Source: Planctomycetota bacterium
GTDB lineage: Bacteria > Planctomycetota > UBA1135 > GCA-002686595
NCBI GenBank assembly: GCA_016220035.1
Contig: JACRIO010000093.1
Coordinates: forward strand, 1-38,557
Length of the DNA: 38,557 bases
Direction: 5' to 3'
Shown here: positions 2,825-37,121 of the stretch, one piece after another
Numbering within the stretch: position 1 is the first letter of the stretch
Layout of the letters: every line of letters begins with the position of its first letter
Position numbers and translations under genes: made by a program
Notes under the pieces: model-generated
What the model was told of the DNA's origin: nothing
Database searches by the model: none
What the model saw: the letters and a program-made list of their open reading frames with translations, nothing else

Positions 2825-4081
2825 ATGTTCCAGACCCTTCTCGCGGCGTCGTTCGCCGCCTTCCCGTGCGCCCAGGATCCGTCCGCGGCGCCCCGCCCGA
2901 CAGCGGACGGTCCTGCGCGCCTCGAACAGCTCGAAAAACGGCTCGCCGACCTCGAACGCCAGCACTCGACGGAGGTCGAGGAGCTGCGCGCCGAGCTCGA
3001 ACGGCTCGAGCAGGAGGCGGCGCGCGCGCGCAGCAAGCCGCCGCCCCAATCGGCGTCGGTTTTCAACCCCGGCATCACCGTCTTCGGCAACTTCCTCGCG
3101 CGCACGGACGACCGGCCCGTTTTCGTCGACGACGACCCGAGCGCGGAACGCGTCGACGATCGCTTCCTCTTGCGCGAATTCGAGCTCGACTTCCGCGCGG
3201 CCATCGACCCCTGGGCGGACGGTGTGCTCATCGCCGCGTTCGGCGCGGAGACGCCCGGTGATTTTTCCGCCGAGGTCGAGGAGGGCTACGTGCTCTTGAA
3301 GAAGCTCCCGCTGCTCGACACGGCGCCGGCGGGGCTGAAATTGAAGGTCGGACGTTTCCGGCCCGCGCTCGGACGCCTCAACACGATCCACCTGCACGAC
3401 CTGCCGCAACCTTCCTACCCGCGCGCGGTGCAGACGATGCTCGGCGCCGAGGGTTTCGTCGCCGACGGAGTCGCCGGGCAGTTCTTCCTCCCGTCGCCGG
3501 GCGCGGACGACGTCCTGGAGGCGCACCTCGCGCTGCTCGACGGCGGGAATCTGCCCATCGCGGGCGGACAGAGCGCGTCGCAGCTCGGGAAGCTCGCGCG
3601 CGTGCAGTGGTTCCGCGACCTCGCGCCGGGCAAGGACCTCGCGGTGGGCGTCTCCGCGTGGACGAGCGACACGGACCATGCGCTCTACGGCCTCGACGCG
3701 ACGTACCGATGGAAACCCGCGGTCGCGGGCGAATGGCGCTCGTTCCTCGTGGGCCTCGAGGCCTTCCAGGCGGAGCTCGATGATCCCGCGCTCGCGTCGA
3801 GCCCCGCCGCGTTCGACGTATGGTCGCAGGTCCAGCTGGAGCGGAACCTCTACCTCGGCGGGCGCTTCGACCGCGCCGAGGACCTCGCGGACGAACGCCT
3901 CGTCACGCACACGCTCGGGCTCTACCTCACCTACTACACGACCGAGTTCCTCCGCTTCCGCGTGGGCTACGAGCACACGGAGAGCGACCTCGACCACCTC
4001 GACGGGCTCGACACCGGGCTCTTCGAACTCAACTTCGTCTACGGATCCCACCCCACCGAGCCCTACTGGGTCAACCGCTGA
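2825..4081 (+). CDS. Outer-membrane porin-like protein with N-terminal coiled coil, in metal-uptake cluster
   Basis: A 418-aa protein with a short signal peptide (MFQTLLAASFAAFPCAQ) followed by a coiled coil (about residues 35-70, heptad-like LEQLEKRLADLERQHSTEVEELRAELERLEQEA). The rest is built of alternating amphipathic beta strands (for example LREFELDFRAAI, GLKLKVGRFRPALGRLNTIH, LGLYLTYYTTEFLRFRVGYEH, FELNFVYG) and ends near an aromatic residue, as outer-membrane barrels do. The coiled coil plus barrel resembles the porin/OprO-type organisation in which the helix trimerises beneath the barrel. It lies 10 nt before the periplasmic metal-binding protein gene, so it probably supplies the outer-membrane step of zinc or manganese uptake. 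The substrate is inferred from context only. The ATG at 2825 fits the signal peptide; the longer open frame upstream is Arg-rich shadow. Confidence 0.75.
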   Translation: MFQTLLAASFAAFPCAQDPSAAPRPTADGPARLEQLEKRLADLERQHSTEVEELRAELERLEQEAARARSKPPPQSASVFNPGITVFGNFLARTDDRPVFVDDDPSAERVDDRFLLREFELDFRAAIDPWADGVLIAAFGAETPGDFSAEVEEGYVLLKKLPLLDTAPAGLKLKVGRFRPALGRLNTIHLHDLPQPSYPRAVQTMLGAEGFVADGVAGQFFLPSPGADDVLEAHLALLDGGNLPIAGGQSASQLGKLARVQWFRDLAPGKDLAVGVSAWTSDTDHALYGLDATYRWKPAVAGEWRSFLVGLEAFQAELDDPALASSPAAFDVWSQVQLERNLYLGGRFDRAEDLADERLVTHTLGLYLTYYTTEFLRFRVGYEHTESDLDHLDGLDTGLFELNFVYGSHPTEPYWVNR

Positions 4082-4091
4082 GGAGTGCCTC

Positions 4092-5147
4092 ATGCAGCGC
4101 ATCCATCGCGTCGTTCTCATCGCCCTCCTGATCGCGATCGGCTCCGAGCGGGCGCTCGCTCGCCCGCTGACGCCCGCGGAGAACAAGCTGAAGGTCGTCA
4201 CCACGCTCGGGGTGCTCGCTGATTTCGCGCGCGCCGTCGGCGGCGACCGGGTCGAGGTCGAAGCGCTCGCGGACCCGCGCGAGGACCCGCACTTCGTTCA
4301 GCCGCGCCCGACCTTGATGAAGCGCGCGCGCGAGGCGGACTTGTTCGTCGAACTCGGCATGGGGCTCGAACTCTGGGCGCAGAAGGTCGTCGAAGGCTCG
4401 GGCAACCCGCGCATCCAGCCCGGAGAACCCGCGCGCGTGGTCGCGTCGACGGGCGTCACCGCGCTCGAATTGCCGAGGGAGCTCTCGCGCGAGTGGGGCG
4501 ACGTGCACCCCTACGGGAACCCACACGTGTGGCTCGATCCGCTGAACGCGAAGGACCTCGCCGCGAACATCGCGCGCGGGCTCGAAGCGGTGGACGCCCC
4601 GCACGCGGTCGAGTACGAGGCCAACCTGAAGCGCTTCCAGGAGCAGCTCGACGATGCGCTCTTCGGCGCGGACCTCGTGAAGGAGGTGGGCGGGAAGATG
4701 CTCACGCGCGTCGCGCGACAGGGGCGCCTTTCTGCTTGGCTCGCGGAGAAGGGGCTCACCGGAAAGCTCGGCGGCTGGCTCGCGCGCGCGGCGCCACTCG
4801 CAGGAAGGCCCGTGGTCACCTTCCACAAGAGCTGGGTCTACTTCGCCGAGCGTTTCGGCCTCACGATCCCGATCGAGATCGAAGAGAAGCCCGGGATCCC
4901 GCCCTCCGCGCGCCGCCGCGACAGCGTGGTCGAGTTGATGCAGGCGCGGAAGCTCCGCACGGTGCTCCACGAGGTCTTCTACGCGACCGACGCCGCGGAG
5001 TACCTCGCGAAGGAGACGGGCGCGCACGCGGTGGTCGTGCCCATCGACGTCGGCGGGGAGGGCGGGCCGAAGGACTACTTCCAGCTCGTCGAGCTCTGGC
5101 TCGCGAAGTTGCTCGAGTCGGAGAGCGCGGCCCCGCCCGCGAAATGA
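4092..5147 (+). CDS. Periplasmic zinc/manganese-binding protein of ABC transporter (ZnuA/TroA family, cluster A-I)
   Basis: A 351-aa substrate-binding protein with a signal peptide (residues 1-23, ending in ALA). It delivers Zn(II) or Mn(II) to the ABC-3 permease encoded 13 nt downstream. Expected metal ligands are visible: His67 in EDPHF, His145 in GNPHVWLDP, His245 in TFHKSW and Asp319 in VPIDVGG. The charged His-rich loop of classical ZnuA is absent. An insertion at about residues 200-237 (KMLTRVARQGRLSAWLAEKG...) separates the two lobes. The start is supported by a GAGGAGTG ribosome-binding site at 4080-4087 that overlaps the upstream stop, so the gene is in an operon with the porin-like gene. 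Zinc versus manganese cannot be decided from sequence. Confidence 0.9.
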   Translation: MQRIHRVVLIALLIAIGSERALARPLTPAENKLKVVTTLGVLADFARAVGGDRVEVEALADPREDPHFVQPRPTLMKRAREADLFVELGMGLELWAQKVVEGSGNPRIQPGEPARVVASTGVTALELPRELSREWGDVHPYGNPHVWLDPLNAKDLAANIARGLEAVDAPHAVEYEANLKRFQEQLDDALFGADLVKEVGGKMLTRVARQGRLSAWLAEKGLTGKLGGWLARAAPLAGRPVVTFHKSWVYFAERFGLTIPIEIEEKPGIPPSARRRDSVVELMQARKLRTVLHEVFYATDAAEYLAKETGAHAVVVPIDVGGEGGPKDYFQLVELWLAKLLESESAAPPAK

Positions 5148-5160
5148 ACGCCGACGGACG

Positions 5161-6672
5161 ATGAACGCCTTCTTCCAATCGATGGAGCGGCCCTTCGTGG
5201 ACTGCCTCCTCCTCGCGGGGATCCTCGTGTACCTCGGGATCCACGTGCTCGCGCGCAAGGTCATCTTCGTCGACTTGGCGCTGGCGCAGATCGCCGCGCT
5301 GGGCTCGGTGTGGGGCGCACTGCTCGGTTGGGACATCCACTCCGATCCCTGGCAGATCAAGGCCTTCTCGCTCGCATTCACGCTGCTCGGCGCCTTCGTG
5401 TTCACCGTGACGCGCATGCGCGACGAACGCGTGCCGCACGAGGCCTTGATCGGCATCGCCTACGCCGTGGCGCTCGGCGCGACGATGCTCGCCTCGGCGC
5501 ACCTCGCGCACGGCGCGGAAGAGGTGAGCGAGCTCCTCGCCGGCAGCATCCTGTGGGTGCAGTGGGACGCGATCGCGTTCGCCGCGGCCTTGTTCGCGGC
5601 GGTCGGCGTGTTCCACTGGACGTGCCGGCGGCGGTTCTTCCTGATCTCGATGCACCACGGCGAGGCGGACGCGAAGGGCGTGTCGTTGCAGCTCTGGGAC
5701 TTCCTCTTCTACGCGTCGCTGGGCTTCGTGGTCACGAGCGCCGTCTCGATCGCGGGAGTGCTGCTCGTGTTCAGCTACCTCGTCATCCCGGCCGTCGTCG
5801 CGATGCTCTTCGCCGACCGCATCGGCCCGCGGCTCGCGATCGGGTGGAGCGTCGGCACGCTCGTGAGCGCGATCGGCTGCTCGCTCTCCTACTTCGAGGA
5901 CCTCCCTTCGGGGCCGACGATCGTCGCGTGCTTCGGCGGATTCCTCGTGCTCGCGGGGCTCGTCCACTACGTCGCGCGGTCGGGCGCGGCGCGCGGAGCG
6001 GCGCTCCTGCGCGTCGGCGGCGGCGCGCTTGCGTTCACGGCGCTCGCCGCGGGCTCCTTCCTCCTGAAGAAGGACGAAGGCCACGACGTGCTGCATGTGT
6101 TGGAGACCGGCAACAAGGCGGAGCGCATGCTGGCGCTCGCCGAGATCCGCGCGGACCCCGAGCTCTGGACGCGCGCGCGCCCCCTCGTGCCCGCGCTGCT
6201 CGCGAAGGGCGAGATCGAGGTGCGTGTCGCCCTGCTCGATCTGATCGACGCGAGGAAGGACGTGACCCTGCTCGGCGCGGTTCACCCCCTGCTCGCGGAC
6301 GCGGACGACTCCGTGCGCGACAAGGCGTTGCGCTGCGTGCGCGATCTCGCCTCGAAGGACAGCGTGCCCGTGCTCCTCGCGGTCGCGGCGAAGGAGGAGG
6401 ACGAGTACCTGAAGGTCGAGTTCGCCGAGACGCTGCTCGAGCTCGGCGACGCGCGCGGTCTCCCGGTCCTCCTCGACGTGATGGAGACGGGCGAGGCCGC
6501 GCAGGCGCGCCGCGATGCGTGGGAGCATCTCCACGCGCACTGGACGTTCGAGCTCCCCTACCGACCCGAGGCCGGGAGCGAGGAGAATCGCGCAGCGCTA
6601 GCCGCATTGCGCCGAGCATGGAACGAGCGCGGTGCCGCGCTGCGCTCGGGTCCGGACGGAGTCTTCCGCTGA
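5161..6672 (+). CDS. ABC-3 family metal permease fused to a C-terminal HEAT-repeat domain
   Basis: A 503-aa protein. Residues about 10-302 form a normal ABC-3 (ZnuB/TroC-type) permease with about eight membrane segments and the cytoplasmic coupling motif FVDLALAQIAALGS (residues 36-49). Two further typical stretches are HEALIGIAYAVALGATML and SIAGVLLVFSYLVIPAVVAMLFADRIG. Usual members stop near residue 270-300. Here a soluble tail follows (about 305-500) with HEAT-like helical repeats: NKAERMLALAEIRAD, EVRVALLDLIDARKD, DSVRDKALRCVRDLAS, EYLKVEFAETLLELGD and the final RRDAWEHL block. The tail should face the cytoplasm, where the ATPase docks. No ATPase gene adjoins. It follows the binding-protein gene by 13 nt in the same operon and converges on the boxR-type gene with a 22-nt gap. 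Confidence 0.88.
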   Translation: MNAFFQSMERPFVDCLLLAGILVYLGIHVLARKVIFVDLALAQIAALGSVWGALLGWDIHSDPWQIKAFSLAFTLLGAFVFTVTRMRDERVPHEALIGIAYAVALGATMLASAHLAHGAEEVSELLAGSILWVQWDAIAFAAALFAAVGVFHWTCRRRFFLISMHHGEADAKGVSLQLWDFLFYASLGFVVTSAVSIAGVLLVFSYLVIPAVVAMLFADRIGPRLAIGWSVGTLVSAIGCSLSYFEDLPSGPTIVACFGGFLVLAGLVHYVARSGAARGAALLRVGGGALAFTALAAGSFLLKKDEGHDVLHVLETGNKAERMLALAEIRADPELWTRARPLVPALLAKGEIEVRVALLDLIDARKDVTLLGAVHPLLADADDSVRDKALRCVRDLASKDSVPVLLAVAAKEEDEYLKVEFAETLLELGDARGLPVLLDVMETGEAAQARRDAWEHLHAHWTFELPYRPEAGSEENRAALAALRRAWNERGAALRSGPDGVFR

Positions 6673-10716: not shown

Positions 10717-10940
10717 CGCGCGCGTGATGCGGGCCGCGCAGCGCGCGCTCCGTGCGCTGCGTGCAGCGAGCTCGACTTCGGAGGCACTTCGGATGTGTCT
10801 TTCGAGCCGGCGATGGAGCGAGCTTTCCCGCACTTTGCCGCCCCGTGTTCCGCTCGCGTCCGGTACGACAGGAGCGCTCGTCGGCAGGGTGCGCGACCGT
10901 GGGGTTCGGCGCGGACCCCTTCGGGCATCGAGGAGACGGC
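10717..10940. other. Leader/intergenic region before the first 825-aa exported protein
   Basis: About 220 nt between the boxB terminator and the ATG at 10941. Apart from the ribosome-binding site GAGGAGA (10929-10936) next to that ATG, I see no gene or clear promoter. The open frame that extends upstream of 10941 lacks protein-like character. Confidence 0.5.
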
Positions 10941-13418
10941 ATGTCGAGGGGAGACCATCGCGCTCATCGCGCCGTGGCGGAACGGTTGCGTCCGACGCGC
11001 GCGCGCGCGAACGCCCTGTTCCGCATCACAGTCGCGCTTTCGTGCAGCGCCACGCTCGCGAGCGCTCGACAAGGCGTCCAAGTCGCCACGTTCCGCCTCG
11101 CGGCGCCCGCCGCGGGCGAATTCGTCCTGCGCGCGACGCTGCCCGTGCCCCCGGGCACCTTCCTCCCCGAGAACGGCGGCAGCGCGTTCCACGTGCGCAA
11201 CCCCGACGGTGCGATGGTGCCGGCGCAGACCGAGGTGGTGAGCCGCTACCCGCAGTCGACCGACGGCGCGGACGTGGTCGAGGTCCTCGCGCGCGTGCGC
11301 CGCCCCGCGGGTGCTCAACCGGGGGACGCGCTCACGTACCCCGTGCTCCTCGAACCGCACCGGCTCGAACAGACGGCACCGGGCGCGCAGGTCGCCCTCC
11401 TGCTCGCGACCACGCGCGCGGTGTACGCACGCGCGACGGACGCGTTCGGCCACGAGTACGTGGCGGACCTCTACGAGGACGTCCGCATCCCAGGCGGCGA
11501 TCGCTACCGCGTCCTGCGCGCGGGTCTCGCCGCGCGCACCGAAGCGACGCACCAATCCCTGCGCGCCGTGGATCCGGAAACGGGTCCGCTCGGCACGCTG
11601 CCGCACCTCATGGGCGTGCACGCCTACTTCACGCAGTGGAGCGGCGAGGACTTCCTGTCGCTCGACCTGCGCGTGCACAATGCCGCGAGCGGCCAAGATC
11701 CCGCCACGCCGCTCGACGACGCGCTCCAAAAGCTCTACTTCGGGACCTTCGAGCTGCGGCTGCCGCACGACTGGGTCGTGCTCGACGCCTTCCCGAATCC
11801 CTACTTCGGCGCGCCGCTCACCGAGGGGAGCTTCCGGGTCTGGCCGATCGTGGCGCCGCTCGCGAACGGCAAGCTGCACGTCCTCCCCCAGATGGCGCAG
11901 TTCCAGCGCCGCCTCGTGATCGCGCACGACGACCCCGAGACGATCGCGCGCGCGCTCGTCGTGCTGCGCGAGGAGAACCTCGGGTACTGCGCGCCCGGCG
12001 CTCCGAGCAAGACCCGGCCCCTGTGGTCGTGGTGGAACGCGGGGACCGCGCGCTACTTCCCGCAGCGCCGGCGCATGCCCGACCTCGGCATGCTCGACAC
12101 GGCGCAGCAGATCGCGAGCGATCAGGGGGCGCTCGCCGTGCGCCAGACACAGCTGGCGACCGGCTCGACCGGGCCGTGGCCCGCGCAGTCGGCGGGACTT
12201 GGATGGGCGCATCCGTGGGGCGTCACCGACGGCGGGATGGTCAGCGGCGACGAGATCTGGCTCTACGACGGCCTCACGACCGCGTGGTGCGCGTCGAACT
12301 CAGGCTACCGGTTCGCGGAGTTGCGGCACCGGATGTACGTCGATCGCCAGCGCAACGTGCTGTTCAACGCCCCGGGCAATCCGACGGCCGTGCACCAGTG
12401 GGTCGTGCACGATGCCGTGCACGGCGACTACCTGCCGGTGTGGTGGTTCAACGGCCCGATGCTGTGGGCGGCCGATCCGTTCGGCTTGAGCACCGCGCCG
12501 ACGTTCCAGAACGACTGGGTCGCCGCGAACGGCAAGGCGCCCGCCTACGACGCCGAGCTCGGCGCCTACCAGTCGATCGACGAAGCGCACCTCGGGCGCT
12601 TCACGCACGACGCGAAGGTGCTCGTGTGGCTCGGCAACGACGCGCTCGCGAAGGACGACCTCCGCGGCCAGGCGGAGTCGTTCCACTTCGGCTATTCCGA
12701 GCTTCCGCAGGACATCTGGAACGGGACGATCGTCAGCGGGCTGCGCGCCTCGGAGACCTACGTCGCCGGTCATCCGGGGAACGGGTTTTCGTTCGGTCGC
12801 CGCGAGGGCTGGTGCCTCGACGCCGTGTGCGCCGCCTACTCCACGTCCGACGAGCTCTGGAGAGCGCGCAACCGCCCTTGGCTCGCGCGCGTCGTGAACG
12901 TGATCGAAGCGGGCCAGTCGACCTGCACGGGGACGATCCAAGCGACGCTGCTCTACAACGTGTTCAACGCGCAGTATCGCTGTCGGCAGTCGATCGAGGC
13001 CGCGATCGGCGAGCACGCGCTCGTCGCGCTGCGCGAGAGCGTCTTCGGCCGCGGCGACCCGGCCGCGTCGCAGTCCTTGAACCGCGTCCTCGCGAACTCG
13101 ACGCGCGCGATGATCGCGCCGCTCTACTGGAGCTCCGCCGGCCATGCGCCGTGGTCCCTGATCGCCGTGGGACCGGGCGATTCGGCGCAGCCGCTCTATT
13201 GCAACTCCATCCCCGCGGACGGAAACGGCGGCAACGTCGACGCCTACCAGTGCTGGTCGTCGTTCGCTTACGGCTACGAGCTCGGCGGCGATGCGCAGTT
13301 CCTGCTCAAGGCGCAGGAGATGCTCGGCCAGAACCTTCGCTCGGGGCTCGAAGACCACGTGCTCGAGAACCTGAACAACCGCGCGGCGATCCTGGAGCTC
13401 GTGCAGCGCCTGCAGTGA
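10941..13418 (+). CDS. Large exported protein of unknown function, tandem paralogue A
   Basis: An 825-aa protein with an Arg-rich N-terminus and a hydrophobic export signal (about residues 24-43, ALFRITVALSCSATLASA). The start at 10941 has a good ribosome-binding site (GAGGAGA). Residues about 45-150 look like a beta-sandwich (FVLRATLPVPPGTFLPENGG, QTEVVSRYP, DVVEVLARVRRP). The remainder is rich in Trp, Tyr and His, with motifs shared with the next gene: LPHLMGVHAY, LWSWWNAGTARYFPQRR, GLGWAHPWGV, YLPVWWFNGPMLWAADPFG, CTGTIQATLLYNVFNAQYRCRQSIEAA and a helical C-terminal region. The plan of beta-sandwich plus helical barrel is reminiscent of polysaccharide lyases or glycosidases such as exo-rhamnogalacturonan-lyase-like proteins. 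That comparison is weak and no catalytic residues are assigned. Confidence 0.72.
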   Translation: MSRGDHRAHRAVAERLRPTRARANALFRITVALSCSATLASARQGVQVATFRLAAPAAGEFVLRATLPVPPGTFLPENGGSAFHVRNPDGAMVPAQTEVVSRYPQSTDGADVVEVLARVRRPAGAQPGDALTYPVLLEPHRLEQTAPGAQVALLLATTRAVYARATDAFGHEYVADLYEDVRIPGGDRYRVLRAGLAARTEATHQSLRAVDPETGPLGTLPHLMGVHAYFTQWSGEDFLSLDLRVHNAASGQDPATPLDDALQKLYFGTFELRLPHDWVVLDAFPNPYFGAPLTEGSFRVWPIVAPLANGKLHVLPQMAQFQRRLVIAHDDPETIARALVVLREENLGYCAPGAPSKTRPLWSWWNAGTARYFPQRRRMPDLGMLDTAQQIASDQGALAVRQTQLATGSTGPWPAQSAGLGWAHPWGVTDGGMVSGDEIWLYDGLTTAWCASNSGYRFAELRHRMYVDRQRNVLFNAPGNPTAVHQWVVHDAVHGDYLPVWWFNGPMLWAADPFGLSTAPTFQNDWVAANGKAPAYDAELGAYQSIDEAHLGRFTHDAKVLVWLGNDALAKDDLRGQAESFHFGYSELPQDIWNGTIVSGLRASETYVAGHPGNGFSFGRREGWCLDAVCAAYSTSDELWRARNRPWLARVVNVIEAGQSTCTGTIQATLLYNVFNAQYRCRQSIEAAIGEHALVALRESVFGRGDPAASQSLNRVLANSTRAMIAPLYWSSAGHAPWSLIAVGPGDSAQPLYCNSIPADGNGGNVDAYQCWSSFAYGYELGGDAQFLLKAQEMLGQNLRSGLEDHVLENLNNRAAILELVQRLQ

Positions 13419-13562: not shown

Positions 13563-16079
13563 ATGGCAGGCAGGGAAGCAGGCCGCGCACGCGCGCGAAC
13601 ATTGGATCGTCGTCGGCTCGCGGGCGCGAGCCTCGCGCTCGGACTCGCCGCGTGCGGCGGCGGAGGCAGCAGCGCCGGCGGCGGGCTGGGCGAGCACAGC
13701 TTCGCGCTCGAGGATCCGCCCGCGCTCGTGTTCGCGGAAGGCGACACGGTCGGCGCGCTCGAGGTGGCGCTCCCCGAGGCGGACAGCTTCGTCCTGCGCG
13801 CGACGCTGCCGCTCCCGAAAGGCGTGTACCCGCGCATCGACGGCGCGCAGCCGTTCTCGATCTTCCACCGCAACGCGGGCAGTTTCGCGGCGCAGGCGGA
13901 GATCGTCACCCGCTACCCACGCGCCGAGGACGGCGCCGACGTGGTCGAGGTCCTCGCGCGCGTGACGCGCCCCTCCGGATCGGCCGCGGGCGACCGCGTC
14001 CATTACTCCGTGCTCTACCAACCCGCGCCGGCGATCGCGTTCGCGCCCGACGCGGACGTCGCGGCGCTGCTCGCGGCGCCGGGCGCCCTGATCGCGCGCT
14101 CCCACGACTGCTTCGGCAACCTGTACCAGAGCGACGTGTGGACCGACGCGCGCGCCGCCTCGGGCACGCTGCGCGTCCTGCAGAGCGGCGTCGCGGCGGA
14201 CCAGCGCGCGACGCACTCCGTGCTGCAACCCGAGCCCGCGGTCGAGGGCGCGACCGCGACGCTCCCGCACTTCTTCGGCGTGCACGCCTACCTGCGGCAG
14301 TGGCAGGGAGAGCCGTTCGTGTCGCTCGACCTGCGCGTGCACAACGCGCTCAGCGGCAAGGACGTCGAGACGCCCCTCGACGATCCGTTGCGCGAGCTCT
14401 ACTTCGCCGACTTCGAGCTCTCCCTGCCGCAGGGCTGGGTCGTCTTGAACGCGTTCACGGACCCGTACTTCGGCGCCCCCTACGACGAGGGCGACCGCCG
14501 CGTGTGGCCGATCGTCGCTCCGATGGAGGACGGGACGCTGCACGTGATCCACCAGCAGGGCCAGTTCGAGCGCCGGCTCGCGCTCTGCAAGGTGGGCGAG
14601 GAGGCGAAGGCGCTCGCCTACCTGCGCGAGGAGCACCTCGCGTTCTGCCGCGACGGCGAGAACGCGGGCGGGATGCAGCTCTTCTCGTGGTGGAACGAGT
14701 CGACCGCGCGCTACTTCCCGCAGCGCCAGGCGCTGCCGTGGCTCGACGCCGCCGGCCTCGAGAACCTGCGCGCCGCCGACACGGGCGAGCTCGCCGCGCG
14801 CATGGGTCAAGTCGCGACGGGTTCGACCGGCGAGTGGCCCACGCAGTCGACGGGCATGGGTTGGGCGCATCCGTGGGGCGTCAGCGAAGCGGGCATGGTC
14901 AGCGGGCAGGAGATCTACCTGTACGAGGGCGTCGCGTGCGCCGCGGCCGCGTCGAACGCCGGCTACCGGATGATGCAGCTGCGCCACCGCATGTACACCG
15001 ATCGCCAGCACAACGTGCTCTTCGATCTGGAGGGCGCGCCGACGCGCTGGGAGACCTGGGCCGTGCACGCGCCGGAAGGGAGCTACCTCCCGGTGTGGTG
15101 GTACAACGCCCCGATGCTGTGGGCGTCGGACCCGTTCGGGTTCGGCGCGGAGAACAACGCCGCGCAGAACGCGTGGGTCGCCGACAACGGCAAGGCACCC
15201 GCGTACCGAGACGCGCTGCTCGGCTACGACTCGATCGACCAGGCGCACCTGGTCCGCTACATGCACACGCCGAAGGCGCTGATCTGGATCGGCAACGACG
15301 TGCTCGCGAAGGAGGACGCGTGGGCGCAGGCGGAGGGCATCCTCTTCGCGTACACCGACCTCCCGCAGGACCTGTGGGGCGCCATCATGCCGACGAGCCT
15401 GCTCGCGGCGCAGAACTTCGTCGCGGCGCACCCGCACAACGGCGTCTTCTACGGCCGCGGCGAAGCGTGGGGCCTGGACACGGTGTGCACCGCCTATTCG
15501 ACGGAGACGCCCGAGTGGCGCGCGCGCGTCCGCCCGTGGTTCGGCAAGGTGATCGCGCTGCTCGAGCGCGGACAGTCGAGCTGCTCGGGCACGATCCAGA
15601 ACACGCCGCTCGGGAACGTCTTCGGGGGACAGTACGCCTGCCGCCAGTCGATCGAGGCCGCGATCACCGAGAACGCGCTCGTCGGCATGCGCGAGAGCGT
15701 GTATCGCGGCGACGACGCGACGCACGCGGCACAGGTGAACGGCGTCGTCGGACGCTCGATCTACGGCATGATCGGCCCGCTCGTGTGGACCAACACGTAC
15801 CACGGCCCGTGGGCGCTCATCGGCGTGGGACCGGCGGACATCACGCGGCCGCAGTTCTGCGACTGGATCCCGGAGGACGGCAACTACGGGTTCGCCGACC
15901 ACTACCAGATCTGGTCGTCGTTCGCCTACGCGTACCGGATGACGCAGGACGCGCGCTTCCTCGACAAAGCGAAGGAGGCCCTGGGCGTCGCCGACCTCCA
16001 CGCCCTCGAACTCGACCCGCTCGAAAACCTCCACAACAAGTGCGCGCTGCTCGCGCTCAGCCAGAGGATGGCCCCGTGA
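13563..16079 (+). CDS. Large lipoprotein of unknown function, tandem paralogue B
   Basis: An 838-aa paralogue of the preceding gene, alignable over nearly its whole length. It differs at the N-terminus: RRRLAGASLALGLAAC gives an Arg-rich signal with a lipobox (LAAC, lipidated Cys31), then a Gly/Ser linker, so it is probably membrane-anchored rather than free. Shared landmarks are FVLRATLPLPKGVYP, DGADVVEVLARVTRP, LPHFFGVHAY, LFSWWNESTARYFPQRQ, GMGWAHPWGV, YLPVWWYNAPMLWASDPFG and CSGTIQNTPLGNVFGGQYACRQSIEAA. Paired Cys residues in the last block could form a disulfide outside the cytoplasm. The gap between the two genes is 144 nt and has no obvious terminator. No enzyme motif is recognised; carbohydrate processing at the cell surface is a guess. 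Confidence 0.73.
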   Translation: MAGREAGRARARTLDRRRLAGASLALGLAACGGGGSSAGGGLGEHSFALEDPPALVFAEGDTVGALEVALPEADSFVLRATLPLPKGVYPRIDGAQPFSIFHRNAGSFAAQAEIVTRYPRAEDGADVVEVLARVTRPSGSAAGDRVHYSVLYQPAPAIAFAPDADVAALLAAPGALIARSHDCFGNLYQSDVWTDARAASGTLRVLQSGVAADQRATHSVLQPEPAVEGATATLPHFFGVHAYLRQWQGEPFVSLDLRVHNALSGKDVETPLDDPLRELYFADFELSLPQGWVVLNAFTDPYFGAPYDEGDRRVWPIVAPMEDGTLHVIHQQGQFERRLALCKVGEEAKALAYLREEHLAFCRDGENAGGMQLFSWWNESTARYFPQRQALPWLDAAGLENLRAADTGELAARMGQVATGSTGEWPTQSTGMGWAHPWGVSEAGMVSGQEIYLYEGVACAAAASNAGYRMMQLRHRMYTDRQHNVLFDLEGAPTRWETWAVHAPEGSYLPVWWYNAPMLWASDPFGFGAENNAAQNAWVADNGKAPAYRDALLGYDSIDQAHLVRYMHTPKALIWIGNDVLAKEDAWAQAEGILFAYTDLPQDLWGAIMPTSLLAAQNFVAAHPHNGVFYGRGEAWGLDTVCTAYSTETPEWRARVRPWFGKVIALLERGQSSCSGTIQNTPLGNVFGGQYACRQSIEAAITENALVGMRESVYRGDDATHAAQVNGVVGRSIYGMIGPLVWTNTYHGPWALIGVGPADITRPQFCDWIPEDGNYGFADHYQIWSSFAYAYRMTQDARFLDKAKEALGVADLHALELDPLENLHNKCALLALSQRMAP

Positions 16080-16087
16080 AGTCCTTC

Positions 16088-17176
16088 TCACCGTCGGAAA
16101 CGCCGCGCGAAGCGTTCCTCGAGCTCCTCGGCGATCTCCTCGCCCATGGCCGCCTTGGCGGCGCCGTCGTAATGGCCGTCGTCGGGGATCACGGAGAGGC
16201 GCCCCTCCGCGCGGCGCAGCGCGCGCAACGCGGGCAGGAGGTCGAGCACGGCGATCGAGCGTGCGTCGCAGGCCGCGCGCACGCGCGGCGTCGTTGAATC
16301 GACCGCGGCGTCGCGCGCCACGAGCGTCGCGAGCGGCAGGACGGCGATCAGCACTTCGAAGTCGTGGGCGCGGGAGAGCTCCACGAGACGGCCGAGCGCT
16401 CCGTCGAGACGCGTCCACGCCGCCTCCAGGTCCGCCGGCTTCGTCGCGGGCCACGTGCGGTCGATCCACGCGTCGTGGAGCTTCATCACGAGCGCGCTCC
16501 TGCGCGCGAGCTGGCGCATGCGCCAGTCGCGCCGCAGGTCGGCGCTCGCGGGTGCGTTCCAATCGAACACGATCGGACCGCTCGCCGCGAGCCGCCGCGC
16601 GAGTGCGTCCGTGTCGACGCGGTCGAGGTCGTTCGCGTACCAGCCGAGCACGACGACGTTCGGGCGGACGCGCGGGAGGAGCTCCTCGAGCAGCGCGAGC
16701 TCCTGCTCCGTGTTGTAGGAGCGGACGCCGCCGTTCCACACGCACGCGCGACGAGCGTCCGGTCCCGCGCGGCGCGCGAGCGCGCGCTCGAGCGCGCGCG
16801 GGAGCGTGTCCTCCTCCCCCACGCCCTGGCCGTACACGAGGCTGTCGCCGAGGACGAGCACGCGCGCGTCGTCCTCTCCCGCGTCGGCGTGCTCCGGCCC
16901 GCGCAGGCCGAGCGCGTTCACGGACACCTCCTGCAGGTAGGTGTAGTGCGCCGTGCCGGGCAGCATCTCGAACCCGCGCCGCGCGTTGGCGCGCACCTCC
17001 ATCAGCGGCTCGCGCTCCGGAACGGGCGCCCCCCACACGATTCGGCACACGAGTTCACCCGCGAGCAGCGCGCCCGACGCACCGAGGGTGAGCGCGAGCC
17101 CTCTGCGCTTCCATCGGCGGCGGCCGGAAGAAGAAGCGTCCGTGTGGTTCCCGACGGTCGCGGACATGCGTGGCAT
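16088..17176 (-). CDS. Membrane-anchored SGNH/GDSL hydrolase-like protein
   Basis: A 362-aa protein (start at 17176) with one N-terminal membrane segment (about residues 27-48, LALTLGASGALLAGELVCRIVW). It then has SGNH blocks: LVLGDSLVYGQG with the nucleophile Ser112 in GDS, the Gly/Asn block VVVLGWYANDL, and a C-terminal DDGHYDG with likely catalytic Asp/His (about residues 333 and 335). Such proteins act on ester bonds, often O-acetyl groups of surface polysaccharides. Substrate unknown. An in-frame ATG at 17194 and another at 17167 are alternatives; 17176 is preferred because a GAGG motif lies 4-5 nt upstream. It converges on the 838-aa lipoprotein gene (8-nt gap) and diverges from the glycosyltransferase, which makes a role in glycan modification plausible. 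Confidence 0.8.
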   Translation of the reverse strand: MPRMSATVGNHTDASSSGRRRWKRRGLALTLGASGALLAGELVCRIVWGAPVPEREPLMEVRANARRGFEMLPGTAHYTYLQEVSVNALGLRGPEHADAGEDDARVLVLGDSLVYGQGVGEEDTLPRALERALARRAGPDARRACVWNGGVRSYNTEQELALLEELLPRVRPNVVVLGWYANDLDRVDTDALARRLAASGPIVFDWNAPASADLRRDWRMRQLARRSALVMKLHDAWIDRTWPATKPADLEAAWTRLDGALGRLVELSRAHDFEVLIAVLPLATLVARDAAVDSTTPRVRAACDARSIAVLDLLPALRALRRAEGRLSVIPDDGHYDGAAKAAMGEEIAEELEERFARRFRR

Positions 17177-17283
17177 TGTCCTCGACGAAGGCACTCGGTC
17201 CAGCGGTCCACCGAGATCGCCGCGCGGCGGCGCGCAGGCCGCTGCCCGTGGAACGGTCGTGCGCCATCTGCCATCCTCCGCGC

Positions 17284-18504
17284 ATGAGCGCCGCGCGTGT
17301 CCTGGTCGTCAGCGAGAAGGTCCCGTGGCCCGTCGACGACGGCGGACAGGCGCGCACGTACAACGTCCTGAAGCGGCTCGCGAGCGCGCTCCCCGTGACG
17401 CTGCTCGGGCGCGCTCCGTCCGACCCCGCGCACACGACGCCCATCGAGGCTCTCGGCGTCGAGGTCGCGTGCTCCGGCCGCCGCGTCCCCGCCTGGCGCA
17501 CGCCCGCGTGGGCCGCGCTGTCCACGGTCACGCGCGCGCCGCACCCGATGGGCAAGAACCGGTCGGGAACGATGCTGCGCGAGCTCCGCGCCCGCATCGA
17601 GCGGGGCGGCGTGACGGCCGTGCACTTCAACCACCTCGACACGGCGCAGTACGTCGAAGCGCTCGGGCCGCTCCGCGCGCGCGTGCTCTGCGTGTTCGAC
17701 ACGCACAACGTGCTGACGACGATGTACGAGCGCTTCCACGCGACGGCGCGGAACCCGCTGGCGAAGGGTTTTCTCCACCTGCAGTGGATGAAGATGAACC
17801 GCTACGAGCGCGCGATCATGAAGCAGATGGACCTCGTCTGCGTCTGCTCCGACCTCGAGCGCGCGCTCCTGCGCACGTGGGGCGTCGACCGGGTGCTGGT
17901 CGTGCCCAACGGCGTGGACACGGACTTCTTCGCACCGGAGAGCGACTCGATCACCGCGCGCGCGACGCCGCCGCTCGTCGTGTTCACGGGCGCGATGGGC
18001 TACGCGCCCAACGCGGACGGCGTGCGGTGGTTCCTCGACCGCGTGCTGCCCAAAGTGCGGGAGCGCGTCCCCGGCGTACGGTTCCGCGTCGTCGGCAAGG
18101 ATCCGCCCGCCGACCTCACGGTGCGCGCGGTCGCGGGTTCCGTGGAGTTCACGGGCTACGTCGACGACGTGCGGCCGCACATGCGCGGCGCGTCGGTCTT
18201 CGTGTGTCCCCTGCGCATCGGGGGCGGGACGCGGCTCAAGATCCTCGACGCGATGGCGCTCGGACTGCCGGTCGTGTCGACGACGGTCGGTGCGGAGGGG
18301 CTTCAAGTGACGAACCACCACGACGTCGAGCTCGCGGACGACGCCGATGCCTTCGCCGACAACATCGCCGAGGTGGTGGCGAACGAACGGCGCGCGCGCC
18401 TCCTCGCGCAGCATGGTCGCGAGCTCGTCGTCGCGCGCTACGGCTGGGCCGGCGTCACCGCGCCGCTCGTCGAACGGCTCCGGGCGCCGGCCTCAGGGGG
18501 CTGA
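17284..18504 (+). CDS. Glycosyltransferase family 4 (GT-B fold)
   Basis: A 406-aa retaining glycosyltransferase of the GT-B fold. The N-terminal lobe opens with VLVVSEKVPWPVDDGGQARTY, a start typical of GT4 enzymes that bind the acceptor (GG motif). The C-terminal nucleotide-sugar lobe has VPNGVDTDFFAP, LVVFTGAMGYAPNADGVRWF and LRIGGGTRLKILDAMALGLPVVSTTVGAEGL; the usual Glu of the EA motif reads Asp-Ala here (ILDAMA). It probably adds a sugar to a lipid-linked or surface glycan in the cytoplasm. The N-terminal signature resembles sugar transferases found with PEP-CTERM/exopolysaccharide systems (TIGR03087-like), but no such locus is seen. Its stop overlaps by 12 nt the convergent end of the AAA+ fusion gene. 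Confidence 0.88.
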   Translation: MSAARVLVVSEKVPWPVDDGGQARTYNVLKRLASALPVTLLGRAPSDPAHTTPIEALGVEVACSGRRVPAWRTPAWAALSTVTRAPHPMGKNRSGTMLRELRARIERGGVTAVHFNHLDTAQYVEALGPLRARVLCVFDTHNVLTTMYERFHATARNPLAKGFLHLQWMKMNRYERAIMKQMDLVCVCSDLERALLRTWGVDRVLVVPNGVDTDFFAPESDSITARATPPLVVFTGAMGYAPNADGVRWFLDRVLPKVRERVPGVRFRVVGKDPPADLTVRAVAGSVEFTGYVDDVRPHMRGASVFVCPLRIGGGTRLKILDAMALGLPVVSTTVGAEGLQVTNHHDVELADDADAFADNIAEVVANERRARLLAQHGRELVVARYGWAGVTAPLVERLRAPASGG

Positions 18505-21500
18505 CGCCCACGCGAAGAACTCGTCGAGCGCGCCGGCGAGGACGCGCGCGACCTTCGCGCTCGTCCGCCCCGTGCGCCGGTCGCGCACGTGCGGATCGCG
18601 TCCGGTCGCGTAGCGCCGAACGAGGCGCGCGCTCGTCGGCGCGGGACGCGCGAGCCGCGCGGCGAAGAGCGGATGCAGCCGCTCCTCTGCCGCCTCGCGC
18701 GGCGCGGGACACCACGCGAGCACCGAGGCGCGCGTCTTCCGGTGCACGAGGCGCGCCTCGCACAGAAGGGCGCCGGTGAGGCGGTCGCGCGCGTCGCGCA
18801 AGGGCCGCGTCTCGCACGCGATCTCGGCCGACGCCGGCCACGTGTTCTCGCGCGGGATGCGCAGGACCTCGACCGCGACGACCTCGCGCTCCTCCTTGCG
18901 CCGACCGCGCGCATGCGCGCCCGCCCGCGCGGCTTCGCCCGCGCGCACGAACGAATGCAGGCCCGCTTCCGCCGCGAGCAGCGCGTGGGCCCCCGCCCCC
19001 GCGATCGAGAGCGCGAGCACGTCTTCGTTCGCGTCCGGGCCGTGCCGGTCGTCCAGCACGAGCACCTCGAAGCCCGTCCGCTCCTCCCACGCCGCGTAGG
19101 CGCGCGCGAGCTGCTCCACCGCGCCGAGCGCCGACGCGCGCGGCTTCACGAGGCGCACGACGAGCACCGCGTCGCCGAGCCCGTCGGCGGTGTCCTGCGC
19201 GAGGAGGTGCGCGAGCCGCGCGCGCTCGAGTTCGAGCTCGTCGCAGCGCGCGGAGAGCCGCGTCGCGTCCCGCTTGTCCTGCGTGCGCAGCGCGTGCTCC
19301 GCGAAGCCGCGCGCGTGCTGCTCGAGGACGTTCACCGCGGGGAGCACGGCGTCGATCCGGTGCAACTCGTCGAGCGCGAGGAGCGCTGCTGCGCGGTCGC
19401 CCCAGAACGTGGAGGACTGCGTGCGGACCACGAGTTCACCGCGCCGCGCGCTCCACTTCGCGGAGCGCGCGAGGAGCTCCTCCGAGGCCGCCGCGAGCCG
19501 CGTCGCGCGCGCGCGCACGCTTTCGAGGCTGGCCGCGACGGCGAGCACGGGCGTGTGCGCTCCCGCCGTCTCGCCCTCGACGATCTCCGCGACGACGCGG
19601 CCGTCTTTCGCGCGCAGCGCGACGAGCGCGTTCGGGCCGAGCTCGCCGCGCGCGAGAAGGCGCGCGAGCGGGAGCAAGACCAGCCGCTCGATCGTGCGCT
19701 TGAGCGGCCGCGCGCCGAGTGCCGGCGAGTAGCCCTCGGCGAGCAGGAGCTCGACCAGCCCCGGATCGACGTCGACCGCGAGGTTGCGCCGCGCGATGCC
19801 GCCTCGGTCGAGGACGTTCGTTAGCTCGCGCCGCACGATGCGCTCCGCGGTCTCCAAGGCGAGAGGCTGGAAGTTCACGACGCGGTCGATGCGGCCGAGG
19901 AACTCGGGCCGGAACGAGCGACGGAGCTCGCGTAAGACCGCTTCCTTGTCCGGCGGCGGCGGCGGCGCCCCGCCGAAGCCGAGGCGCGCTTCCGTCGGCA
20001 CCGCGGAGCCGACGTTCGACGTGAGGATCACGATCGTGCCGCGGAAGCTCGTCGTGCGCCCCGTGCCGTCGGTGAGCCTTCCCGCGTCGAAGACCTGGAG
20101 GCACAGGTCGAACACGTTGAGATGGGATTTCTCGATCTCGTCGAGCAGCACGACGGAGAACGGGTGCTCGCGCACGGCACCGGTGAGCAGGCCGACCTTG
20201 CTCGTGCCGCCCGTCAGGCGCTCGAAGGCCTCGGGCGTCGCGTACTCGCTCATGTCGAAGCGCAGGAGGCGGCCCGCGTCGCCGAACAGGTGCTCGGCGA
20301 GCGCGCGCGCGAGCTCCGTCTTGCCGACGCCCGTGGGTCCGACGAACAGGAGCACGCCCATCGGCTTGTGCGGGTCCTGCAGCCCCGCCTTGATCAAGGT
20401 GAGCAGGTCGAGGACGACGTCGACGGCCTCCTTCTGCCCCATGACGCGCGACTCGAGGAACGCGCGCGTGCGTTCGAGGTCGAGCGGCACCGCGTCGTCG
20501 AGGAAGTCGACCGGGATCCCGGTGACCTTCGAGACGGTGTCGAGGACGTCGCGCTGCGTGAAGCCCGCCGTTCCGGTGCGCTCGAGCACGGAGCGGAGCA
20601 GCGTGGCGCTGCGCCCCGGCTGCGCGACGCTCTGGAAGTAGGTCTCGGCCGATTCGTGCAGCGCGGCGAGCGCCTCGGCGTTGGGGAGGACGCCGTGCTC
20701 GAGCGCGATCGCCTCGAGGACGCCGAGCGTCTCCTTCCGGTCCGCCGCGCGCACCATCACGGTCGCGAACACGCGCGCGAGCGCGGCACTCTTGCCGAGG
20801 CTGCCGCGAAAGCCCTCGGGCGTGCTCTCGCCGAGGAGCGCGATCGAGCCCGACTCGAGCTCGGGCGCCAGCATCGACGCCATGTTGAGCTCGGAGTCCT
20901 CCGCGCGGCCGCCCATGGCGAGCTCGTGCGCGTTGGGCACGTAGAGCACGACCTTGCGGGGCGCGCGTGCCTGCGCCACGAGGTCGCGCACGCGCGTCTG
21001 CCACTCGCCGAGGTACTTCGTGCCCGCGAGCAGGTCCGACGGCGCGACGCGCACGACGATCCAGCCTGCGTGGAGCGCATCCAAGCGGTGCGCGAGCTCG
21101 TGCACGAGCGCCGTCTTGCCGACGCCGCTCTCGCCGAGGAGCACGGCGGTGCGCGCGCCCTTGCCCGTGAGCCTCTCGACCAGCGTGTCCACCGCGCGGT
21201 CGACGCCGTGCGCGCGCGGAAGGCGACCCGCGCGCGCCTCCGCGCAGAGGTCGAGGCCGAACGCGCGCAACTTCTCGGGATCGGCCGCGTCGACGACGGC
21301 GTCCTTCGCCGCCGTGGGCTCGCCTGCGCGCTGCTCGAGGAAGGTCTCGAGCACGGGGAAATCCTCGGGCCCCCGCTCGCGGATCCGCTCGCGGGCGCGC
21401 GCGCACGTCTCGACCGAAGGCTCCGCGAGGCCGGACGGCCAACCGCCGCCGAGCCGCTTCTCGAGCAACGCGGCGAGGCGCTGCGCGACGCGCCAGCTCG

Positions 21501-22032
21501 TCATCGGGTGTGCGAGCTCGCCGAGGAGCGCGTCGAAGTCGACCTTCGCGTGGACCGAAGCGAGCGCGTCCTGTGCCGCGATCTGCACGTCCCAGTCCGA
21601 GTCGTGCTTCATGCGGTCGAGCGCGAACGCGACGCACGCCGGCCGGCTCGCCGCCGCGCGCACCGCCGCCTCGCGCACGCGCCACGCGCGATCGAGCACG
21701 AGCGCGCGCACGAGCTCGTCCGCGCCGAGCGAGGGATCCTTCGACAGCGCCCACGCGAGCGTCCAGCGCACGTACTCGGACCTGTCGGACGCCATCCCGA
21801 GCGCGCGCTCGACGAGCCCGCCGTCGCGCCGCAACACGCACGCGCGCAACGCCGCGCCGCGCACGGAGGGATACGGATGCTCGAGTAGCGCGAGCACGTC
21901 CTCCACCCCCGCATCCGACGACGCCAACGCCGCCGCGAGCTGGTGCAGCGCCGTCCCGTGGTCGTTCTCGCGCGACGGCTCGACGCCGGCGGCGATCAAG
22001 TCGCGGACGAGTCCTTCGATGCGGGGGGGCAT
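18493..22032 (-). CDS. HEAT repeats - double AAA+ (ClpA/ClpC-like) - pseudo release factor fusion protein
   Basis: An 1179-aa single reading frame. Residues about 45-190 are HEAT-like repeats (HPYPSVRGAALRACVLRR, SEYVRWTLAWAL, AWRVREAAVRAA, DWDVQIAAQDALA). AAA+ 1 (about 275-480) has Walker A GESGVGKT (300-307) and the pore-loop-like KYLGEW (339-344), but its Walker B reads VVLYVPNAHEL (361-371), lacking the Asp-Glu pair. AAA+ 2 (about 515-820) has Walker A GPTGVGKT (565-572), Walker B VVLLDEIEKSH (627-637), sensor-1 TSN, Arg finger in FLGRID and sensor-2 GARPLKR, but no GYVG pore loop. No ClpB-type coiled-coil middle domain is present. Residues about 870-1179 match class-I release factors: FWGDR (876-880), a PCRF-like helical block, LSIAGAGAHALLAAEAGLHS and a terminal GRDPHVRDRRTGR...VLAGALDEFF. 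GGQ and the SPF/PxT codon-reading motif are missing. An LGF tripeptide (684-686) lies where ClpC has its ClpP-docking loop. ATG start at 22032. Confidence 0.85.
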   Translation of the reverse strand: MPPRIEGLVRDLIAAGVEPSRENDHGTALHQLAAALASSDAGVEDVLALLEHPYPSVRGAALRACVLRRDGGLVERALGMASDRSEYVRWTLAWALSKDPSLGADELVRALVLDRAWRVREAAVRAAASRPACVAFALDRMKHDSDWDVQIAAQDALASVHAKVDFDALLGELAHPMTSWRVAQRLAALLEKRLGGGWPSGLAEPSVETCARARERIRERGPEDFPVLETFLEQRAGEPTAAKDAVVDAADPEKLRAFGLDLCAEARAGRLPRAHGVDRAVDTLVERLTGKGARTAVLLGESGVGKTALVHELAHRLDALHAGWIVVRVAPSDLLAGTKYLGEWQTRVRDLVAQARAPRKVVLYVPNAHELAMGGRAEDSELNMASMLAPELESGSIALLGESTPEGFRGSLGKSAALARVFATVMVRAADRKETLGVLEAIALEHGVLPNAEALAALHESAETYFQSVAQPGRSATLLRSVLERTGTAGFTQRDVLDTVSKVTGIPVDFLDDAVPLDLERTRAFLESRVMGQKEAVDVVLDLLTLIKAGLQDPHKPMGVLLFVGPTGVGKTELARALAEHLFGDAGRLLRFDMSEYATPEAFERLTGGTSKVGLLTGAVREHPFSVVLLDEIEKSHLNVFDLCLQVFDAGRLTDGTGRTTSFRGTIVILTSNVGSAVPTEARLGFGGAPPPPPDKEAVLRELRRSFRPEFLGRIDRVVNFQPLALETAERIVRRELTNVLDRGGIARRNLAVDVDPGLVELLLAEGYSPALGARPLKRTIERLVLLPLARLLARGELGPNALVALRAKDGRVVAEIVEGETAGAHTPVLAVAASLESVRARATRLAAASEELLARSAKWSARRGELVVRTQSSTFWGDRAAALLALDELHRIDAVLPAVNVLEQHARGFAEHALRTQDKRDATRLSARCDELELERARLAHLLAQDTADGLGDAVLVVRLVKPRASALGAVEQLARAYAAWEERTGFEVLVLDDRHGPDANEDVLALSIAGAGAHALLAAEAGLHSFVRAGEAARAGAHARGRRKEEREVVAVEVLRIPRENTWPASAEIACETRPLRDARDRLTGALLCEARLVHRKTRASVLAWCPAPREAAEERLHPLFAARLARPAPTSARLVRRYATGRDPHVRDRRTGRTSAKVARVLAGALDEFFAWASAP

Positions 22033-22551: not shown

Positions 22552-23226
22552 CTACCCCGTGCCGGCCGTCGGCGTGCCGCGCGGCAGATCGCGGATCGAA
22601 AGCAGCCCGCGCCGCCGCCACCCCGTGGTGAGCAGCCACGTGCGCGCCCTCGCGAGCCACGTCTCGCCGCCGCGGATCTCCTTCCAGCCGTCGAACCAGG
22701 CGGCCGACGTGCAGGGATCGAGGAGCTCGCTCACCATCGCGCCGTGCCTGCGCGCGTTGCCGAACACGTAGGCGAGCACGTGGCGCACGTCGCGCGGCGC
22801 CCGGAGCTCGCGCGCGTGGTAGCGGTCGGCGAACAGCGCGCCCGAACGCCCGAGGAATCGATTCACCGCGTGCGCGAGCCGTACGGCGAGCCCCTTCATG
22901 CCGCGCGCGAGCGCAATCTCGCTCTCCGCCTCGCACACGAGGTGCACGTGGTTCGACGCCGCGCCGTAGTGCACGACGCGCAGGCCGAAGCGTTCCGCTC
23001 CGTCGCGCAAGCAGACGCGGAGGACCGCGTGCACGCCGCGCGAGCGCAGGCTCTGCACGCCGTCGACGACGCGCAGCGTGACGTGCAGCGGATGCCGCCC
23101 CGACAACTTCGGCCGCAGTCGGTGCGGAACGAGCGGCCGCGGCGCGACGCGCTTGCGTCCCGCGCCGGGGCGCACGCCGCCGCGTTGCTTGAACTCGAGG
23201 GTCGACTGTTGGATCACGCGCTTCAT
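22552..23226 (-). CDS. REP-associated tyrosine transposase (Y1_Tnp / IS200-like, RAYT)
   Basis: A 224-aa HUH-superfamily single-strand nuclease. The N-terminus has the typical QSTLEFKQRGGVRPGAGRKR stretch. The catalytic His pair is in SNHVHLVCEAE, preceded by the strand FGLRVVHYGA, and the nucleophilic Tyr probably lies in LAYVFGNARRHG. RAYT proteins cut single-stranded DNA at REP palindromes and are usually domesticated single-copy genes rather than active insertion sequences. No flanking target repeats or partner genes mark a full IS. The ATG at 23226 is chosen; an in-frame GTG at 23238 would add four residues. It lies between two gene-poor stretches, consistent with an accessory patch. Confidence 0.85.
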   Translation of the reverse strand: MKRVIQQSTLEFKQRGGVRPGAGRKRVAPRPLVPHRLRPKLSGRHPLHVTLRVVDGVQSLRSRGVHAVLRVCLRDGAERFGLRVVHYGAASNHVHLVCEAESEIALARGMKGLAVRLAHAVNRFLGRSGALFADRYHARELRAPRDVRHVLAYVFGNARRHGAMVSELLDPCTSAAWFDGWKEIRGGETWLARARTWLLTTGWRRRGLLSIRDLPRGTPTAGTG

Positions 23227-23790
23227 CTCTCTATTCACTCGACGTCTCTACCCACGAACGGTGACCGAGTTTCTCGGAGAAGTTCGCGCGTGCGACAACC
23301 CGAACACTCGCGCGTCGAATGACATGCCTCCGATGGATCGGACACTCCGTCGCGCATCACGGCAGTTCGTCGTGATCGCGCGCGACCTGCGCCACGCACC
23401 TGCGCTCGAGCGATGCGAGCTTCGCGACGTCGCACACGCGCCCCTCGGTGCAGCGGCTCGGATGCGGTGCCGCGCGGGAACGGACTCGAGTGATTGGGCA
23501 GACACCTCGAGGTCCACCCGGACGTCGGAAGGACGACTCGACGACGAGCTGCGCTCCGGCTGGACCCCCGGGAACCTTCGCCAGAAGCCCCGGCGTTCGT
23601 GCACCCTGCCGACACACCGTGCCGACACCGCGCCGGCACACCGCGAGGCGGCTCGCGACCGTGGATCCATGGGAGCGTCGGAAGAGAGGGACACCAAGGT
23701 CGACGGGGGCGCAGAGACAGACGACCTTCAGTGCCTCCGAGTCCGCGTCGAGTGGCTGGTGGCGGGCGAGCGAGCTACGCTCCGTCGCGC
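23227..23790. other. Gene-poor stretch between transposase and lipoprotein gene
   Basis: About 560 nt in which all six frames have open stretches without protein-like composition or a recognisable domain. Base composition is less extreme than in the flanking genes. I see no tRNA, repeat array or clear terminator. It may be remnant sequence beside the transposase. Confidence 0.5.
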
Positions 23791-30600: not shown

Positions 30601-30783
30601 GAGGGGTTCGAGTTCGCGCTCGATTCCGCGCGCGCAACGAGCGGTGAAGTGCTGTGCGAGCTCGAGGTCATCGGCGCCGACCTCGCGAGCCACGCCTACG
30701 ACGCGCTCCTCGGCCGCGACGTGCTCGGTCGCGCGGTGCTCGTCCACACGGGCGAGCTCGACAGCTTCTCGCACGCATTCTGA
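30601..30783 (+). pseudogene. C-terminal fragment of a retropepsin-like aspartyl protease
   Basis: Frame 1 is open here and ends in TGA at 30781-30783. It reads EFALDSARATSGEVLC, then ELEVIGADLASHAYDALLGRDVLGRAVLVHTGELDSFSHAF, with no plausible start. DALLGRDVLGRAVLVHTG followed by a terminal F-S-x-x-F matches the end of small bacterial retropepsin-like aspartyl proteases, which close with a (L/I)GRD-(V/L)L strand. The first catalytic Asp-(T/S)-Gly region is missing, and the upstream DNA is the start of the divergent acetylesterase gene. It therefore looks like a 5'-truncated remnant. Moderate confidence because it is short. Confidence 0.5.
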
Positions 30784-30866
30784 GCTCGTTTTCGGCTCCG
30801 GATCGCGTACCCCGGGTCCGGACGATCGACGCCCCGCGACCGCGCCGCTATCTTGTTCGCCCTCTC

Positions 30867-32537
<1,671 letters not shown>

Positions 32538-36842: not shown

Positions 36843-37121
36843 CCCCGCGCCGACGGGGTGCGGACCGTTTTCCGCGTACCCGCGCCGCCAGCGTGGAAGC
36901 GCTTTCGCGGTGCGGCCGCGACGACGCTTCGCGGTCCGTTCCCAATCAAGCCCGCTCCACGCCGCGTCCGACCTAGGGCAGCAGGTGGACGACCCCTCCG
37001 TCCGGCCGGTAGATTCCTCCCCCCAACTCCCGGCCCGAACGCCCCGCGCGGGTGCTCCGGCCCCTTCCTTTCCTATGAATGCCTCCACCGCCGCGCGCGG
37101 TCGCGGGCCAGCGAGCTCATC

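Follow-up and report, generated by a model that had tools for sequence, protein, structure and literature searches.

In eukaryotes, the release-factor-type protein Vms1 interacts with the AAA+ chaperone Cdc48 (PMC6514570), and in plants PrfB3, a relative of RF2 that has lost both SPF and GGQ, is still functional and protects the 3' ends of petB mRNA (PMC5897788). Here, we describe a bacterial gene that joins an AAA+ motor and a release-factor fold in a single protein. The gene is found in a 38,557-nucleotide stretch of DNA from a Planctomycetota bacterium (assembly GCA_016220035.1, contig JACRIO010000093.1, positions 1 to 38,557), which we refer to as the window. It occupies positions 18493–22032 of the minus strand and encodes 1,179 amino acids that comprise HEAT repeats, two Clp-type AAA+ modules (D1 and D2) and a module homologous to release factor 2 (RF2). 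The fusion of an unfoldase motor to a dead release factor points to a stress-related machine that targets ribosomes. The preliminary description of this DNA knew of no well-characterised protein of this design, and we likewise found no description of a Clp–release factor fusion in the open-licence papers of PubMed Central. The fusion family is a distinct class of Hsp100/Clp proteins, undescribed as far as could be searched.

The reading frame runs from an ATG at 22032 to a stop codon at 18495–18493 and contains no internal stops (all coordinates within the gene refer to the minus strand). The N-terminal region (residues 1–236, 21325–22032) is all-helical in the structural model and contains a Pfam HEAT_2 match at residues 45–127 (E-value 3.8e-7). 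It is followed by D1 (residues 260–480, 20593–21255, with an AAA match at residues 297–394), D2 (residues 556–717, 19882–20367, matched by AAA_2 at 6e-41) and the D2 small domain (residues 725–802, 19627–19860, matched by ClpB_D2-small). A flexible linker, modelled with low confidence (residues 819–835, 19528–19578), leads from the motor to the release-factor module, or arm (residues 838–1179, 18496–19521), in which PCRF (PF03462) was found at residues 866–1034. The E-value of this match, which passes the curated cut-off, was 1.5e-6 with the full protein and 3.9e-7 when the C-terminal part was searched by itself. As PCRF exceeds the Pfam cut-off, the fusion architecture probably sits unremarked in domain databases. 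A model of the full-length protein, with a predicted local distance difference test score (pLDDT) of 86 and a predicted template modelling score (pTM) of 0.52, contains Clp-like rings whose best full-length structural matches were ClpC, ClpB and ClpA, with ClpC foremost, and places the flexible linker at residues 820–832. The three-part architecture that had been read from the letters, in one unbroken frame, is real, as confirmed by the frame, the Pfam matches and orthologues in independent assemblies.

Homology to release factors extends over the whole fold of the arm. The NCBIfam model prfB (RF2) matches the C-terminal 312 residues at 7e-14, the prfA (RF1) model only at 0.014, and an RF2 of known structure matched the window protein at 5e-11 across ~211 residues. 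PCRF was matched by 25 of the 25 members of our first family alignment, and a profile of the release-factor module retrieves genuine RF2 at ~1e-50, almost end to end, and RF1 at only ~1e-22 to 1e-32. An AlphaFold2 model of residues 838–1179, built with an alignment of 25 relatives, reached a pLDDT of 90.8 and a pTM of 0.88. Its best match in the PDB was Escherichia coli RF2 (1gqe, E-value 2e-18, 368 columns), all of the PDB matches listed were RF1 or RF2, and the best Foldseek matches were RF2 in the free or pre-accommodated state. The predicted overall shape is that of RF2, with a helical domain 1, a superdomain 2/4 and a reduced domain 3. The motifs named earlier by eye (FW, E.G.H and R.Y...RD.RTG...VL.G.LD.F) are real and conserved across the family. 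FW lies in domain 1 and E.G.H in domain 2, and R.Y and, in most members, RD occur towards the C-terminus, where the window protein reads VRRY...VRDRRTG...VLAGALDEFF (residues 1138–1173, 18514–18621). Both the profile search and the structure prediction that the preliminary description had proposed as checks came out in favour of a release-factor fold.

That description recognised the homology of the module, but it missed the loss of both GGQ and SPF and did not state the strand. The alignment places the SPF stop-codon reading loop at residues 1027–1046 (18895–18954) and the GGQ loop at residues 1058–1090 (18763–18861), and none of the 42 members retains either motif. GGQ occurs as a string in one family protein only, L038, where it sits in domain 1, the wrong place, and inspection of the family alignment revealed no PxT-type loop at the codon-reading place. 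Ordinary release factors from the same genome set have GGQ in 18 of 18 RF1 and RF2 sequences and SPF in all 11 RF2. As GGQ and SPF were lost in every member examined, classical peptide release and stop-codon reading by the arm are excluded on sequence grounds. The ratio of non-synonymous to synonymous substitution rates in the three closest pairs was low (0.07–0.12 in the arm, 0.04–0.12 in the AAA part), which indicates that the arm is under purifying selection and is no decaying relic. These observations indicate that the arm is a functional descendant of RF2 that is catalytically dead and codon-blind.

The loss of GGQ and SPF throughout the family would also fit exaptation of the release-factor fold as a plain scaffold for clients or adaptors, in a stress disaggregase or unfoldase whose link to the ribosome is gone. 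The arm differs greatly in surface chemistry from member to member (isoelectric points of 5.1–9.7 across the family), its sequence has diverged somewhat more rapidly than that of the AAA core, and the gene is linked to dnaK and dnaJ in two genomes (see below), all of which agree with this explanation. However, the entire fold has been kept and not a mere fragment of it, including the signatures of domains 1 and 4, and most hosts checked also encode canonical ClpB, beside which a plain disaggregase would be redundant. We consider an exapted scaffold rather doubtful, and the completeness of the release-factor fold supports a machine aimed at ribosomes.

The motor is unusual as well. In D1, the Walker A motif GESGVGKT (residues 300–307, 21112–21135) is intact in 41 of 42 members and the pore loop KYLGEW (residues 339–344, 21001–21018) is near-invariant. 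The Walker B position reads LYVPNAH (residues 363–369, 20926–20946) and its catalytic DE is lost in 42 of 42 members, so that none has the signature of a hydrolysis-competent D1. In D2, Walker A (GPTGVGKTE in the window protein), Walker B (DEIEK), the arginine finger and sensor 2 are kept in 43 of 43 members, and the canonical GYVG is absent from the pore-loop place (residues 607–613, 20194–20214) in all 43. At the corresponding columns, the canonical motifs, including the Walker B DE and GYVG, are present in ClpA, ClpB and ClpC taken from related genomes as controls. Judged by these motifs, the first ring has a pore loop without catalytic Walker B residues and the second has ATPase motifs without GYVG. 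This split between the rings offers a natural test of how hydrolysis and pulling are coupled in Clp motors. With two AAA+ modules, a Clp-type D2 and a D2 small domain, the protein falls in Hsp100 class 1. No Clp N-domain was detected in it, its ClpB profile score is far under the ClpB cut-off, and its AAA+ modules are 126 residues apart, compared to ~258 in ClpB, showing that it has no coiled-coil middle domain of ClpB length.

In the window protein, LGF (residues 684–686, 19975–19983) matches the ClpP-docking loop of ClpA and ClpC. This [LVI]GF loop is kept in 42 of 43 fusion members and is absent from the ClpB controls. The protein could thus be a ClpP-dependent protease, in which the motor feeds ClpP and the arm picks ribosome-associated or nascent chains for degradation, and ClpP genes are indeed present in 26 of the 26 other fusion genomes. 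No ClpP gene was found in the assembly of the window itself, which is 84% complete; because all 26 other hosts have ClpP, incompleteness is probably the cause. Other points against a protease are the arm, whose 340 residues occupy the end that would face ClpP, and D2, which lacks the GYVG pore loop; GF may be a relic. On balance, such a protease seems unlikely.

The genome survey that had been suggested for this fusion uncovered a family. A scan across 84,980 species genomes, using exact peptide patterns only, and surveys of whole genomes together yielded 43 distinct proteins with the same core from five phyla (Planctomycetota, Chloroflexota, Myxococcota, Acidobacteriota and Pseudomonadota). 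Its distribution is sporadic: the fusion was present in at least 20 of the 294 Planctomycetota sampled, in 3 of 47 genomes from the class of the Ktedonobacterales genome, in 7 of 237 from the phylum of the Sandaracinaceae genome, in 1 of 149 Acidobacteriota and in 1 of 274 Gammaproteobacteria. The window derives from a metagenome-type assembly and the Pfam score of its protein alone is modest, which might raise the suspicion of an assembly artefact or a chance resemblance. This is barely credible and is refuted by the 43 proteins from independent assemblies, among them the complete chromosome CP126532, and by the confident arm model with RF2 as its best structural match.

The D1–D2–release factor core is constant across phyla, whereas the N-terminus varies. 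The HEAT repeats of the preliminary description are present in the window protein, but they are optional in the family and lie outside its conserved core. HEAT-like repeats occur in most Planctomycetota and in one deltaproteobacterial member, and some members have other helical N-termini. Chloroflexota, Gammaproteobacteria and most Myxococcota members lack the repeats and have little or nothing ahead of D1. As the core is constant while the N-terminus varies, the arm may be the common targeting module. In phylogenetic trees, the release-factor halves formed one clade outside RF1 and RF2 (support 100/100), and the AAA cores formed one clade (92/83) that does not group with ClpA, ClpB or ClpC but occupies a separate branch (97/95). 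The trees support a single origin for each half, and one ancient fusion event would be the simplest reading. A phage or plasmid origin was rejected: the best viral and plasmid matches extend no further than about residue 840 and belong to ordinary Clp-type proteins that lack the arm. A role as a defence system was also rejected, as the PADLOC matches cover the generic AAA+ module only.

The fusion does not replace either of its relatives. RF1 and an ordinary RF2 with GGQ and SPF are kept by the hosts, so the fusion is no substitute for termination. Replacement of ClpB was rejected as well: canonical ClpB was above the curated cut-off in 11 of 17 hosts checked and just below it in three. The continued presence of RF1 and RF2 would agree with a factor-specific remodeller, in which the arm competes with or binds the partners of RF2 (RF3 or RF2 itself) and the motor removes these from ribosomes at termination. 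Domain 1, the part of RF2 that faces RF3, is retained in the arm, but no evidence for such a role was found in co-occurrence or neighbourhoods, in which the presence of RF3 was not searched for. We regard a remodeller of this kind as very unlikely.

Neighbourhood clustering showed that the surroundings of the fusion gene are not conserved beyond close relatives, and gave no conserved operon partner except dnaK–dnaJ in two genomes. In a Blastocatellia genome, which also encodes canonical ClpB, dnaK, dnaJ and a MerR-type regulator (HspR-like by position) are followed by the fusion gene 18 bp downstream and then by a hydrolase. In a Ketobacter metagenome-assembled genome (MAG), the gene order is dnaK, dnaJ, dapB, fusion, carA. 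These two neighbourhoods point to stress proteostasis.

In the window, a converging open reading frame (ORF) at 17170–18504 (+), glycosyltransferase-like by eye, shares 12 bp with the 3' end of the fusion gene. Upstream of the fusion gene, at a distance of 519 bp, a 228-residue ORF (22552–23238, -) looks by eye like a REP-type (Y1) transposase, with no Pfam match below 1e-5. Genes for a trigger factor (36858–38408, +) and an ABC-F type ATPase (30654–32537, +; two ABC domains and ABC_tran_Xtn) are found 8–15 kb upstream. Both kinds of protein are able to act at the ribosome, and their nearness is probably a coincidence. HEAT repeats also occur at the C-terminus of an ABC-3 metal-transport permease, in one frame (5161–6672, +), which adjoins a ZnuA-like binding protein (3678–5147). 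Two adjacent genes at 10752–13418 and 13563–16079 (+) encode proteins of 888 and 838 residues. Judged by eye, they look like tandem paralogues, and neither has a Pfam match below 1e-5.

We propose that the protein is a stress-related Hsp100 ATPase whose dead release-factor arm targets ribosomes or ribosome-bound factors, a reading to which we give about an even chance. The RF2-derived module would be a fixed C-terminal targeting arm that docks, independently of the codon, at or close to the A site of ribosomes that are stalled, stressed or idle, or alternatively on a factor that normally binds RF2. Docking would place the presumed hexameric motor beside proteins stuck there. D2 would hydrolyse ATP, D1, with its aromatic pore loops and without a catalytic Walker B, would grip the substrate, and the N-terminal repeats of some members may add client binding. 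As a result, a ribosome-associated protein would be unfolded or removed, or the complex remodelled, within the general proteostasis response to stress. Plausible roles would be ribosome rescue, the extraction of nascent chains or disassembly.

Several points weigh against this proposal. Ribosome binding by the arm is inferred, and a predicted structure of the arm alone is no proof of it; with the SPF loop lost and domain 3 shortened, the ability to bind the A site may have gone too. The linkage to dnaK was found in only 2 of ~40 neighbourhoods, in which no conserved neighbour is tied to translation. Searches upstream for operators of HspR (HAIR) and HrcA (CIRCE) gave none convincingly above shuffled sequences, a weak test, as two control dnaK genes likewise gave none. 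The main difficulty is geometric: the arm is attached to D2 at its C-terminal side, where the channel of known Hsp100 proteins has its exit, and how a docked ribosome would feed substrate is not obvious; the direction of threading is itself presumed. The flexible linker partly eases this problem. If the arm does dock on ribosomes, bacteria would have an unfoldase that is hard-wired to translation, and it would become testable whether they clear stalled ribosomes with a dedicated ATPase.

Compared with known systems, the family is a distinct Hsp100 class whose defining feature is the catalytically dead release factor permanently joined to the motor, and it is present in at least five phyla. Like ClpA and ClpC, its members have two AAA+ modules, a ClpP-type GF loop and no middle domain of ClpB length; unlike them, they have a dead D1 Walker B, no GYVG in D2, an added arm and a separate branch in the tree. 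With ClpB they share the two AAA+ modules, and the dnaK linkage in one genome recalls the known dnaK–hspR–clpB clusters, but the GF loop and the absence of the coiled-coil middle domain set them apart. Their nearest AAA+ relatives are a sister clade of Clp-like proteins that have mostly a KYLGEWQ pore loop, a dead D1 Walker B, no GYVG and a GF-type loop, but lack the release-factor module. This clade (L040–L046 and L049), which seems to form a separate, uncharacterised class of Hsp100 proteins, comes from a Myxococcales MAG, Saprospiraceae/Lewinella (with Saprospiraceae proteins of 756 residues) and Schekmanbacteria. It occurs in tandem copies in Schekmanbacteria and the Myxococcales MAG (three in L045, apparently also in L040).

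The arm resembles RF2 over its whole fold, with FW.D in domain 1, E.G.H, R.Y and RD.RTG...VL.G.LD.F. It has the PCRF and core fold of RF1 and RF2, but it differs in its lack of GGQ and SPF, its reduced domain 3 and its position at the C-terminus of a 1,000-residue ATPase. PrfB3, by contrast, is stand-alone and has no ATPase. In ribosome quality control, Vms1/ANKZF1 and Cdc48 similarly pair a release-factor-type protein with a double-ring AAA+ ATPase, but there the release-factor fold is unrelated (aeRF-1 type), the two proteins are separate and the ATPase belongs to another AAA+ family. We tentatively suggest that the fusion may be a one-polypeptide bacterial counterpart of this pair, in which the dead release factor would plug the A site of a failed ribosome at any codon, D1 would grip, D2 would burn ATP, and the stalled complex would be pulled apart or cleared.
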